Part shown: piece after piece, positions 6,795-14,323 of the stretch
Layout of the letters: each line of letters starts with the position of its first letter
How positions within the stretch are numbered: the stretch's first letter is position 1
Origin: an uncultured Bacteroidales bacterium
GTDB taxonomy: Bacteria; Bacteroidota; Bacteroidia; Bacteroidales; UBA932
Direction: 5' to 3'
Assembly (NCBI GenBank): GCA_947168525.1
Contig: CAMVMG010000006.1
Location: 33,419-97,418, forward strand
DNA: 64,000 nucleotides
Translations under genes and position numbers: made by a program
The notes under the pieces: generated by a model
Database searches by the model: none
Told to the model about the DNA's origin: nothing
What the model saw: only the letters and a program-made list of their open reading frames with translations

Positions 6795-8264
6795 ATGAAA
6801 ATCAATCTCTTCCTGACCTTATTCTGTGTGGTCCTGCTGGCGGCAGCCTGTTCCTCCCCCACCTCCCGATATGCCAACGACACCACGCTGGTCCCCCGCC
6901 AGGCGGCAGCAGCCGGGCAGCTCCCCCGCGTGATTGTCATGACCGACGCGGAAACGGACGACCGCTGCTCCATGGTCCACTTCCTGCTGTATGCCAACGA
7001 TATGCAGGTGGATGCCATCATTCAGAGCAATTCCTGCTTCCAGCGGCACGGCTGGAGCAGCGAGCCCTGGCTCGAAGAACAGATATCGGCCTATGAGAAG
7101 GTGTATCCCAACTTGAAGGTGCACGACAGCCGTTATCCCACGCCGGAGTATCTGAGAAGCGTGGTGTTCATCGGTGACGAGACACCGGAACACATCGGCA
7201 TCGGCAACAATGCCGCCGCGCTGATCCCGGGCGTGGAGCCGGTCATCGACCCGTCTACCTGGGAAGATACGCCCGGCAGCGACCGCATCGTGGAAGTGCT
7301 CCTGGAGGACGATCCCCGGCCGGTCTACCTGCAGGCCTGGGGCGGTTCCAACACCGCAGCCCGCGCGCTCTACAAACTGAAGACCCAATATCCGGACCAG
7401 TATGCCCGCGCCGCATCCAAGGCCGTACTCTACTGCATCTGGTATCAGGACGGTGGCGGCAACTATATCGAACGGAACTTCCCCGAGGTTACCATCCTCC
7501 TGAACCATCACTTCAGCGGCAGCTGGGACTACGGCACCATGGTGAACTCCGACGACTTCGTAGCCAAGTATCTCCACAACGGGAAAAACCCGCTGGGAGC
7601 CCTGTATACGCAAGGCTACATCAGCGAAGGAGACTCCCCCGCCTTCCTGTATTCCGTCGACAACGGTCTCCGCTCCTACGAGGATCCCACCTACGGCGGC
7701 TGGGGCGGGCGGTTCTACAAGGTAGATGGCTGGGACAACGTGTACCGGGACACCGGCTTCGGCGACCTCCGCGAATGGATTGAACCCGCCATGCACGACT
7801 TCCAGGCCCGACTCACCTGGTGCATCACCCCGGACTACGACAAGGGCAACCACAGGCCGGTCATCTCCTTCCCCGAAGGGCAGGACCGCACCGTTCACCC
7901 GGGCGATACCGTCACCCTGCGCATCCAGGCCACGGACAACGACAAGCCGGACCTGGAAGGAACCTGGAAAATGCGCGGAGAAGTGCTGTCCCAGCAGGGC
8001 ATCACCTACGAGCGGTTCCTGGAGATGGCCTCCAGCCCCGCCGCTTCGTCTTTCCTCACCGGCTGCACCGTGAACTGGCTCCAGGGAAAGGGCGGCACCT
8101 ACCCCGGAATCATCGACCTGATCTACAACAACGACGGCTCCGTGAGCTTTGTAGCACCGCAGGTTAACGCCCCGCAGACCATCCACATCATTGCCGAAGC
8201 CACCGACAAGGGAACCCCGCCGCTCACCACCTACGCCCGCTTCGTGATTACCGTACAGAAATAG
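6795..8264 (+). CDS. DUF1593 / nucleoside hydrolase-like secreted protein
   Basis: Lipoprotein-like N-terminus (LAAACSSP), PRVIVMTDAETDDRCSMVHFLLYANDMQVDAI (nucleoside-hydrolase-like Asp cluster), DDPRPVYLQAWGGSNTAARAL, C-terminal Ig-like domain. Paralogous to three other proteins here. Confidence 0.88.
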   Translation: MKINLFLTLFCVVLLAAACSSPTSRYANDTTLVPRQAAAAGQLPRVIVMTDAETDDRCSMVHFLLYANDMQVDAIIQSNSCFQRHGWSSEPWLEEQISAYEKVYPNLKVHDSRYPTPEYLRSVVFIGDETPEHIGIGNNAAALIPGVEPVIDPSTWEDTPGSDRIVEVLLEDDPRPVYLQAWGGSNTAARALYKLKTQYPDQYARAASKAVLYCIWYQDGGGNYIERNFPEVTILLNHHFSGSWDYGTMVNSDDFVAKYLHNGKNPLGALYTQGYISEGDSPAFLYSVDNGLRSYEDPTYGGWGGRFYKVDGWDNVYRDTGFGDLREWIEPAMHDFQARLTWCITPDYDKGNHRPVISFPEGQDRTVHPGDTVTLRIQATDNDKPDLEGTWKMRGEVLSQQGITYERFLEMASSPAASSFLTGCTVNWLQGKGGTYPGIIDLIYNNDGSVSFVAPQVNAPQTIHIIAEATDKGTPPLTTYARFVITVQK

Positions 8265-8335
8265 GTTCCGACAGGGCCCGCCAGCCAGACATATCAGCCC
8301 GGACCGTTTTCTGGAAACAATTGACCAACAAGCAA

Positions 8336-8381
8336 TTATGCGAAAGTGTCTAGTCGTTGCCGACTAGACACTTTCGCATAA
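8336..8381. repeat. Perfect 21-bp inverted repeat with 4-nt loop between convergent genes (possible bidirectional terminator)
   Basis: TTATGCGAAAGTGTCTAGTCG-TTGC-CGACTAGACACTTTCGCATAA. Confidence 0.85.
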
Positions 8382-8437
8382 CATACTGTTTCATAGTTAG
8401 TTACATTTCACGCGCACTACGCTGCTTCTCCCAAGAA

Positions 8438-11586: not shown

Positions 11587-11598
11587 AGATACACATTT

Positions 11599-12786
11599 TT
11601 ATTTGAACAGCCTGGGAGCATAATCGGCCAGATAGATCCTCCAGTTCTTCCACACATGGCCGCCGTCGGTCTCCAAATACACGTAAGGATAGCCGTTGGC
11701 GTCAAATACCTCGCGCAGGGCCTTGTTGTTCTTATACAGGAAATCCACGTTACCGCAGCCCATCCAGTAGAGCTTCACACCCTTCTTGAACTGGACGGCC
11801 AGCTTGGCGTCGAAGTTCTGGTAGATGGGAGAAATGTCTTCCCGAGTCACGCCCACGGCGGCGCTGAACAGGCCCACATAGCCGAACAGGTCCGGATAGT
11901 TGGCGCTGATGAAGGCCGAATGGAAGCCGCCCATGGAAAGGCCGGCGATGGCACGGTGGGCCTTGTCGGCCTGGGTGCGGAAAGTCTTATCCACGAACTT
12001 CACGATCTCCGGGAAATAGGTCTCGAAGGTGCCGTCCATGGTCCCCTGCTGGAAATGATACGGTTTGTAGTAGCCCATGTCGCTCTCGCCGGGAGCGGCG
12101 CTCATGCCAGCGTGGCCGTTGGGCATCACCACAATCATGGGCTCGGCCTTGCCCTGGGCGATGAGGTTGTCAAGAATGGTGCAGGCACGGCCGAAGTTTT
12201 TCCACTCGTCCTCGTCGCCACCCATGCCATGGAGCAGATATAGGACCGGATACTTCTTCCTGGGGTTGGACTCGTAGCCGTAAGGGGTATATACATTCAT
12301 CCTGCGGTCCATGCCCAGACCGTCGGAGTGATACCATACCGCCGTCACGGAGCCGTGTTTCACTTTCTGCACGCTGTACAGGTCGCCCATCCCGCCGGGG
12401 ATGACAAAGAGGTTCGTGAGCGTGGCGAAGTCACGGAACACATAAGGATGGTTGGGGTCGATGGTGGCAATCCCGTCCACCAGAAACGTGTAGCTGTAAA
12501 GCTCGCTCTCCAGGGGCTTGGAGGTGTAGGTCCACAGGCCGCCCTCCCCTTCCGTCATATCAACGATACCGCTGGAAGCCATGCCGATGTTGGTTCCCTT
12601 CTCTCCTTCCATGAAATCGCCTACAATCTGCACCTTGTGTGCCTTGGGGGCCAGGAAGTTGAAGGTGACGGAGCCGTCCTCGTTCACAATTGCCGATTTC
12701 AAATCCTGGGACGGGAACAGGTTCTGCTGAGCAAAGACAGGCAGCCCCAGAAGGGCTGCCGCCAATATGCTGATGATTCTTTTCAT
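11599..12786 (-). CDS. Secreted esterase with N-terminal E-set/CBM48-like domain (enterochelin/feruloyl esterase-like)
   Basis: Signal peptide; [20 protein letters not shown] (E-set); [41 protein letters not shown]. Confidence 0.9.
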
Positions 12787-12790
12787 ATAC

Positions 12791-14323
12791 CTAGGAAACT
12801 ACAATCACATACTGTGCAAAACGGGTCATGGGGCGTTCGGCCTCATCCCGGACTTCCAGATTCACCACCAGCTTGTCGCCGCTCTTGGCGTCGGCGGGCA
12901 CGGTGAAGGAGGCGTTCCACCCCTTGGCCTCCACAGAGAGTCCTTCTGCCTTGCCTTCTTTATAGGTGCAGGAAGCGACGGGGACATACCACTGGGCGGA
13001 GAGCTTGTTGCCGTCAGGATCGGTGGCGGAGCCACTCAGCTGGACAGTCTCGCCGGGGGCAGCGGTGAAGTCTAGCACCTCTGCGGTGACGATGGGCGCA
13101 TGGTTGCAGTCCTTGGGCTCGCAGATGGCCCAGTCGGCCCGGGCGGCCAGTTCCTCCCACATCACGATGGTGTAGTGGTTGTTACCGCGGTTGTTCACGT
13201 CCTTGCGGAGGCCGATGTCGATGAAGCTGGCACAGCCGAATTGGCAGAAGCCCCAAGAATAGGGTTCATATTCGGCCCGGGGACGGGATCCAAGGTTCAC
13301 GGGTCCCCAACCCTGTTCGGAGGAAAGGGCCCAGTCCATATAGTCGATGAGACCGTAGTTGTAGATAATGGGTTCACCGTAGATGGCACGGCCTTCGGCC
13401 ATCAGCCAGATCTGCTCGGGCAACTTGCCGTGGTTGTACTTGTAGGCCTCCAGGTTCCAGGGAGCGTGCATATAGGGCTGCAGTTCCTCGGCGGCACGCA
13501 TCGGGGAATCTTTGCTGGCGCTGAAGAAAGAGCCGTAGTTGAAAAATCCACCTGGACCGTAGCCGCCAGCCTGCAGGCCAGGGAACATCTCGTCAATCTT
13601 GCTGTCGGCACGGCAGTTGTCTTCGCCGCTGCCGCCGATGCGCACTTTGTTCACTACCTTAACAAGAATGGCATCCCACTCGGGCGTACCGTGGTAGCGC
13701 TCATAGATGGTGTAAAGGGCGCGGACGGTGGTGTTAATCCCGCCCCAGTGTTGAATGGTGAGTGGACGGGGATCGTCGTCCAGTATCTTCTCCACGATGA
13801 AGTTGGACCCTTCGGTTTCGTAGCGGTAGTCGCCTTCGAACTCGATGTTGCCCACCTTGGTGATACTGCGGATGTATTCCGGTGTAGGATAATTCGGATT
13901 GTTTTTGCTCATCAGCCGGTAGTCGGCCTCGTAGCAGTCCAGGATGCGAGACAGCCATGTGGGATCCACCGGACGGTACTCGGTAAGGTCGGCCGCCGTT
14001 TTTACGCGGTGTTCGCAGTGCTGGGCATTGCAGCGGAAATTGGGCGTAATCTGACCAAGGGTATGCTTGCCGCCGTCACCCTGGAAATGGAACATGCCGG
14101 CCGTCCATACAATCCCGGCCAGGTCGTACTGGTCGGCATACATCAGGCTGAGGACGATACCGTTCATATCGTCACACTCCAGGTCAGTGGTAATAAGGAC
14201 GCGTTCCTGCCGGTTCTTGTCCACCTTCACGGCCAGCTCTTCCGGAGCCAGGTTCTTGGGGGAAGCGGTGCAGGCCGCCACAAGAAGGGCGGCTGCACCA
14301 TAAAGAATCCGTTTCATATACAT
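12791..14323 (-). CDS. DUF1593 / nucleoside hydrolase-like lipoprotein
   Basis: [11 protein letters not shown] lipobox; [68 protein letters not shown]. Confidence 0.87.

Follow-up and report, generated by a model that had tools for sequence, protein, structure and literature searches.

Secreted nucleoside-hydrolase-like proteins of family PF07632 as candidate beta-D-apiofuranosidases linked to bacterial D-apiose genes

A 64-kb stretch of DNA from an uncultured, gut/rumen-type Bacteroidales bacterium (the window) carries four genes, here named NHL1 to NHL4, whose products belong to protein family PF07632. We propose, with a probability of roughly 0.6, that these NHL proteins are secreted glycosidases of lipoprotein type whose Ca2+ site resembles that of nucleoside hydrolases and which release D-apiose from plant beta-D-apiofuranosides. 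PF07632 is the former DUF1593, and its Pfam name is now “Cellulose-binding Sde182, nucleoside hydrolase-like domain” (Sde182_NH-like); no substrate is given for the family in Pfam (copy of 2025) or NCBIfam (June 2026). While the family itself is already known, the link to the apiose pathway and the assignment of its function to apiose are new here. The family assignment, conserved residues, fold match, gene order, pathway homology, and cross-phylum linkage presented below were computed. A first-pass annotation made from the DNA sequence had placed four DUF1593 genes at 6795-14323, with C-terminal immunoglobulin (Ig)-like domains and export signals. All four match PF07632 and PF21027, the Ig-like C-terminal domain of Pfam, and they exceed the curated cut-offs of both models, as does a fifth genomic copy (NHL5). 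Each begins with a hydrophobic stretch that runs up to a Cys (e.g., VVLSSC, LLVAAC), which we judged by eye to be a lipoprotein-type signal. The four genes of the window are:

6795..8264, + strand: NHL1, 489 aa, PF07632 (E 6e-64) and PF21027, lipoprotein-type signal; motifs TDAETDD ... EGDSP, with 229 residues from D51 to D280
8438..9958, - strand: NHL2, 506 aa, PF07632 (E 7e-61) and PF21027; motifs CDPELDD, DDPRPVFVQVWGG, and EGDTP
9958..11586, - strand: NHL3, 542 aa, PF07632 (E 2e-51) and PF21027; motifs CDPELDD and DGDSG
12791..14323, - strand: NHL4, 510 aa, PF07632 (E 9e-30) and PF21027; divergent, TDLECDD retained

NHL4, NHL3, and NHL2 lie at the end of a run of 12 - strand genes that begins at 26055 and ends at 8438, with no gap between genes above 89 bp. 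The order is transketolase N half, transketolase C half, FGGY kinase, FucI-type isomerase, RhaT-like permease, SusC, SusD, EstC, NHL4, EstB, NHL3, NHL2, and the members other than the NHL genes are:

25219..26055, - strand: TktN, opening gene of the run; N-terminal half of a transketolase, with 45% identity to AptA of E. coli
24263..25237, - strand: TktC, transketolase C-terminal half, 35% identical to E. coli AptB
22781..24256, - strand: FGGY kinase of glycerol-kinase-like type, sharing 40% identity with the E. coli apulose kinase AplK
21323..22753, - strand: FucI-type isomerase (PF02952), candidate apiose isomerase
20335..21309, - strand: RhaT/ureide-permease-like sugar permease, in place of the ATP-binding cassette (ABC) transporter of other apiose operons
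17185..20280, - strand: SusC-type TonB-dependent receptor, by family match
15606..17162, - strand: SusD-type outer-membrane glycan-binding lipoprotein, by family match
14323..15516, - strand: EstC esterase (PF00756), overlapping NHL4 by 1 bp
11599..12786, - strand: EstB esterase (PF00756), lying between NHL4 and NHL3; its N-terminal part is weakly CBM48-like

We used aptA, aptB, and aplK of E. coli SE15 as reference apiose genes; carriers of this E. coli cluster grow on D-apiose (PMC13001218). Judged by sequence, the run is of the D-apiose type, with a split AptA/AptB transketolase and an AplK-type kinase adjacent to each other. The best family models of AplK and of the window kinase are both glycerol-kinase-like, which fits apulose because its branched end resembles glycerol. 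Compared with the D-apiose operon of E. coli and Pectobacterium (aptA, aptB, aplK, and an ABC transporter), the catabolic genes are homologous, whereas the window has a FucI-like isomerase and the E. coli cluster is without PF07632. No apiose-type ABC transporter was found in the window, where the RhaT-like permease stands instead.

The pairing of PF07632 with apiose genes recurs in other genomes. In a sample of 80 PF07632 loci from one-per-species genomes, homologues of both AptA and AptB occur in 23, and these span four phyla (12 Bacteroidota, 9 Actinomycetota, 1 Acidobacteriota, and 1 Bacillota). Among these 23 loci, AplK is found in 22, the apiose-type solute-binding protein (SBP) and the ATPase in 21 each, and the permease in 20; an apiose gene lies within 120 bp of the NHL gene on the same strand in 12. 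Housekeeping controls appear in 0 to 2 of the 80 loci, and the L-arabinose genes AraA, AraB, and AraD in none of them. The Lucifera butyrica locus (L100) reads LacI-isomerase-AptA-AptB-NHL-AplK-SBP-DUF2291-ATPase-permease, placing the NHL gene (L100:9890-11437) inside the apiose operon at 3 to 4 bp from its neighbor on each side. This locus is flanked by hydrogenase genes, another solute-binding protein, and a regulator, and no hydrolase-like gene besides NHL was found at it; likewise, neither here nor at the Bryobacterales locus did we see a glycosidase next to NHL. A genome from the window's own genus (G036) has the order TktN-TktC-SBP-ATPase-permease-NHL-kinase-isomerase.

To obtain loci that had not been picked by PF07632 itself, we used 398 Bacteroidota genomes, 33 of which contain PF07632. 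We defined AptA-type genes as those with at least 45% identity to the window TktN, with neighbors confirming the assignment where the contig allowed; this query itself comes from an NHL-linked operon, and the cut-off was set after the hits had been seen, the lower hits that we examined being without AplK or SBP neighbors. An AptA-type gene is present in seven genomes (G000, G081, G093, G180, G219, G284, and G419), and PF07632 is present in all seven. Without the window's genome, the count is six of six (hypergeometric P 1.7e-7, calculated on genomes that are not independent, although these six fall in six families). PF07632 occurs in 2 of the 127 genomes that have only generic split transketolases. 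The AptA-type and PF07632 genes lie within about 4 kb of each other in G219, G284, and G419, and G180 stops at a contig edge. The positive control was PF13204, the family of the known apiosidases (GH140-type); it is found in 39 of the 398 genomes and in 4 of the 6 AptA-type genomes (P 0.001). PF13204 proteins are TIM barrels of a sequence family unrelated to PF07632, and what the two have in common is the proposed substrate class and the neighboring apiose operons. No PF13204 gene was found in the window's genome, and none of the NHL proteins matches that family.

Over 125 family members (NHL2 numbering), D35, D39, and D40 are conserved at 99% and E37 at 90%, the QD pair at 97-98%, E325-G326-D327 at 94-97% (97% for the EGD Asp), W350 at 98%, and R353 at 90%. 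Taken together, conservation in these diverse members ranges from 86 to 99% for the Asp, Glu, QD, EGD, and GGWGGR motifs, and with its Asp residues at about 99% the N-terminal motif is not a product of chance. Its spacing, D..(3)..DD, matches that of the second to fourth Asp in DxDxxxDD, the nucleoside-hydrolase fingerprint. The metal-site-like motifs reported in the first pass (TDAETDD, CDPELDD twice, and TDLECDD) are present with matching spacing, but the full fingerprint is not, since its first Asp is replaced by T, M, V, or L in the family. A second motif, DDPRP..Q.WGG, had been ascribed to all four proteins; it is exact in three, whereas NHL3 carries DDKPGPLFIQAWGG instead. The Ca2+ of nucleoside hydrolases is coordinated by two Asp of the fingerprint together with a third located about 230 residues further on; the ion holds O2' and O3' of the ribose and supplies the water that acts as nucleophile (PMC8910321). 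By motif rather than by coordinates, the candidate counterpart of this third Asp is that of EGD, which in NHL1 lies 229 residues after D51. We also observed two types of N-terminal motif in the family, TD-x-E-x-DD and TDIENEPDD (the latter with longer spacing, as in Sde_0182, described below), both of which are linked to apiose operons.

Structure prediction places these proteins beside a known structural relative. An AlphaFold2 model of NHL2, made with 72 relatives, has a mean predicted local distance difference test score (pLDDT) of 92 and a predicted template modeling score (pTM) of 0.91. Its best PDB match is 2YHG (E 4e-34, TM-scores of 0.66/0.80), which is likewise the top match of the NHL4 model. 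A related fold is also found among nucleoside hydrolases: besides Ig domains, the next match is the trypanosomal (T. brucei) inosine-adenosine-guanosine nucleoside hydrolase (IAG-NH) with E 1.7e-4, but at TM-scores of only 0.31/0.44, far behind 2YHG. The structure 2YHG is Sde_0182 of Saccharophagus degradans (Hehemann, Marsters and Boraston 2011). According to a review, its nucleoside-hydrolase-like domain retains a Ca2+ ion and is believed to act as a module that interacts with furanoses (PMC8910321). The nucleoside-hydrolase likeness and the furanose idea are thus not new, as both were published for Sde_0182 in 2011. The window proteins share with Sde_0182 the same two-domain family over the full length and the WGG, QD, and EGD motifs. 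They differ in the spacing of the N-terminal motif (TDMGADPDD in Sde_0182, TDPELDD spacing here), in being without the carbohydrate-binding domains of Sde_0182, and in sitting with an apiose pathway. With the nucleoside hydrolases of PF01156 (RihA/RihC, T. brucei IAG-NH) they share the spacing of the last three Asp and a related predicted fold, and the EGD Asp, about 230 residues on, is a candidate for the third Ca2+ ligand. However, they lack the first Asp of DxDxxxDD, have Gly before the last Asp in place of the nucleobase-activating His/Trp, are secreted, and bear a C-terminal Ig-like domain. A Pfam profile scan gave no PF01156 match for the window NHL proteins, and profile-profile alignment to nucleoside hydrolases was sensible only at the N-terminal motif and the WGG loop.

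These features suggest how an NHL protein could act. The ligands of the Ca2+ would be two of the Asp in D-x-E-x-D-D, the WGG-loop backbone, and the EGD Asp; the ion would in turn grip the furanose cis 2,3-diol in the way nucleoside hydrolases grip ribose. Apiofuranose has a cis 2,3-diol, as ribofuranose does, and it is this group that the metal site of nucleoside hydrolases recognizes. Attack on C1 would come from the metal-bound water, with a nearby acid protonating the oxygen leaving group. Catalysis, the acid, the metal in these proteins, the anomer, and the aglycone are what we infer. Esterases recur near NHL genes and the operon in L065, L066, L069, L075, L081, L088, and L099, which suggests acylated apiosides, and the interleaved esterases would strip acyl groups first. 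The released apiose would enter via the permease of the gene run and then pass through the isomerase, apulose kinase, and split apulose-4-phosphate transketolase of the same run. On a broader scale, PF07632 would be a new and widespread glycoside hydrolase family of Ca2+-dependent beta-D-apiofuranosidases. In these enzymes the fold of nucleoside hydrolases, originally a scaffold for N-ribosidases, would have been redirected to O-apiosides, and paralogs would have specialized, along with partner esterases, in acylated apiosides; for this wider claim we regard the odds as about even.

The whole genome contains five PF07632 genes, all in one region of one contig. The fifth, NHL5 (G000:C6:22375-23154, = L025:8416-9837), lies about 10 kb upstream of the window. 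The five paralogs are 27-46% identical in pairwise comparison and fall in different clades of a tree of 125 family proteins, which points to an old expansion or an assembled set and rules out recent tandem duplication. The four-paralog expansion described in the first pass is thus real as to the paralogs, but its members number five and it is old. In Draconibacterium (L034, L076) and Jiulongibacter (L035, L075), we observed an NHL1-type gene with GH78/abhydrolase genes and NHL2/NHL4-type genes in a separate locus, which in Jiulongibacter (L075) holds apiose-pathway genes; the window has both types together.

Several observations weigh against a role as apiosidases. AptA and AptB are absent from 57 of the 80 PF07632 loci, partly because of short contigs, and in G081 and G093 the AptA-type and PF07632 genes are not within 10 kb of each other. 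The E. coli apiose cluster has no PF07632 gene, from which it follows that PF07632 is not needed for free apiose. In Emticicia agri, the gene standing immediately between AptB and NHL (L067:8326-9948, + strand) codes for a protein of the architecture DUF5060-PF13204-DUF5605, in which PF13204 is the apiosidase-like part. This protein and NHL could have different apiosides as substrates, or apiosidase activity could be missing from one of them, and NHL need not be the apiosidase of that operon. Alignment by hhalign to a nucleoside-hydrolase alignment (E. coli RihA/RihC plus one more nucleoside hydrolase) was not significant (E 0.07, probability 0.8%). Sde_0182 is inactive on purine and pyrimidine nucleosides and has been described as catalytically inactive (PMC8910321). 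We found no enzymatic activity reported for PF07632, and no paper that joins apiosidase with this family or uses the DUF1593 name, in a mostly open literature that lacks most subscription papers and excludes CAZy and in which a recent assignment could be missed. Finally, NHL4 has no EGD motif (HGKLPEQ lies nearby), has DN for QD, and differs in the GGWGGR motif. Its orthologues in Jiulongibacter and Draconibacterium, 72-76% identical, share all three changes, and the NHL4 model is poor around the lost motif (pLDDT below 50 at residues 309-371). NHL4 may therefore be altered or non-catalytic, a tentative conclusion. The first-pass annotation had suggested that these proteins may cleave a furanosidic linkage, such as an apiofuranosyl cap, and feed the adjacent pentose operon. 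The gene context supports this strongly, the operon being of the D-apiose type and the pairing extending to four phyla, but like action of all four is doubtful because NHL4 lacks the C-terminal Asp motif. As a separate observation, at the position of the Emticicia agri PF13204 gene there is an equally large gap in L065 and L069.

Some of these points would be expected if the NHL proteins were non-catalytic lipoproteins that bind furanoses or apiosides for capture or sensing, leaving hydrolysis to neighboring GH3, GH5, GH78, or GH106 enzymes or to esterases. Sde_0182 was called a furanose-interacting module and is inactive on nucleosides, the EGD motif is missing in NHL4, and several glycoside hydrolase (GH) genes are close by. 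We nevertheless consider this unlikely: an active site would be expected to show the motif conservation of 86-99% seen over 125 diverse members, no glycosidase is seen beside NHL at either the Lucifera or the Bryobacterales locus, and the window already has SusD for binding. A different substrate has a somewhat smaller chance still. The NHL proteins could be O-furanosidases for another sugar that the operon handles (e.g., ribofuranosides, arabinofuranosides, or another branched pentose), given that identity between the window homologues and the apiose enzymes of E. coli is only 35-45%, that the isomerase type differs from the one tested in E. coli, and that FucI-like homologues also occur alone in other contexts. 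Yet beside NHL genes the E. coli apiose genes are conserved as a complete set (with SBP, DUF2291, ATPase, and permease), the arabinose genes are found in 0/80 loci, a glycerol-kinase-like kinase with a split transketolase fits apulose chemistry, and PF13204, of the known apiosidase type, is also enriched with these operons (4/6).

The shared fold might instead suggest nucleosidases or ADP-ribose-type hydrolases for nucleotide salvage. This is very improbable, as Sde_0182 is inactive on nucleosides, Gly stands where His/Trp precedes the last Asp, the NHL proteins are secreted, and their context is plant-glycan and apiose catabolism, with a separate PF01156 gene on the same contig. We give even less credence to the idea, prompted by the Pfam name, that these are cellulose-binding proteins linked to apiose genes by chance, since the linkage crosses phyla and is far above background.

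Around the apiose-type run, the remaining features of interest are:

8336..8381, strand not assigned: inverted repeat of 20 perfect pairs in the space where NHL1 and NHL2 converge
5780..7021, - strand: EstA esterase (PF00756), true start probably inside the listed open reading frame
26281..27039, + strand: DeoR-family regulator, divergent from the run

The inverted repeat at 8336-8381 is likely a bidirectional terminator closing the - strand run. In the window, genes for CE1-like esterases (11599-12786, 14323-15516, 5780-7021, and 42976-44145) alternate with NHL genes, as they do at further apiose loci of Bacteroidota (L066, L075, and L088). GH78, GH106, GH3, GH5, GH2, and GH30 genes nearby would fit either a plant secondary glycoside or a pectin side chain as the source. 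The genome's sole PF01156 gene (L025:15646-16728, - strand) lies about 3 kb ahead of the window on the same contig, with SusCD on one side and GH2/GH30 genes on the other; it has an unusual N-terminus (LIDNDLCGDGDGLF) and may be another recruited furanoside enzyme. The FucI-like isomerase was dropped as a pathway marker because most of its 44-48% identical Bacteroidota homologues stand alone without transketolases. At L110-L125, such close homologues are found without transketolases or a kinase, several next to an SDR gene, and by this context the isomerase family has a second use. No PADLOC defence link was found at the locus.

Apiose occurs in rhamnogalacturonan II of pectin, in the pectins of aquatic plants, and in many plant secondary glycosides, and to our knowledge GH140 is the only apiosidase family. 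PF07632 has had a structure since 2011 and no known substrate; beta-D-apiofuranosides are now a specific prediction for hundreds of bacterial genes. The prediction extends to the fungal homologues of PF07632, which have been reported during growth on lignocellulose (PMC5294722). If true, it would explain the apiose supply of gut, rumen, soil, and marine bacteria without GH140-type enzymes, and it would present a nucleoside-hydrolase fold working on O-glycosides.

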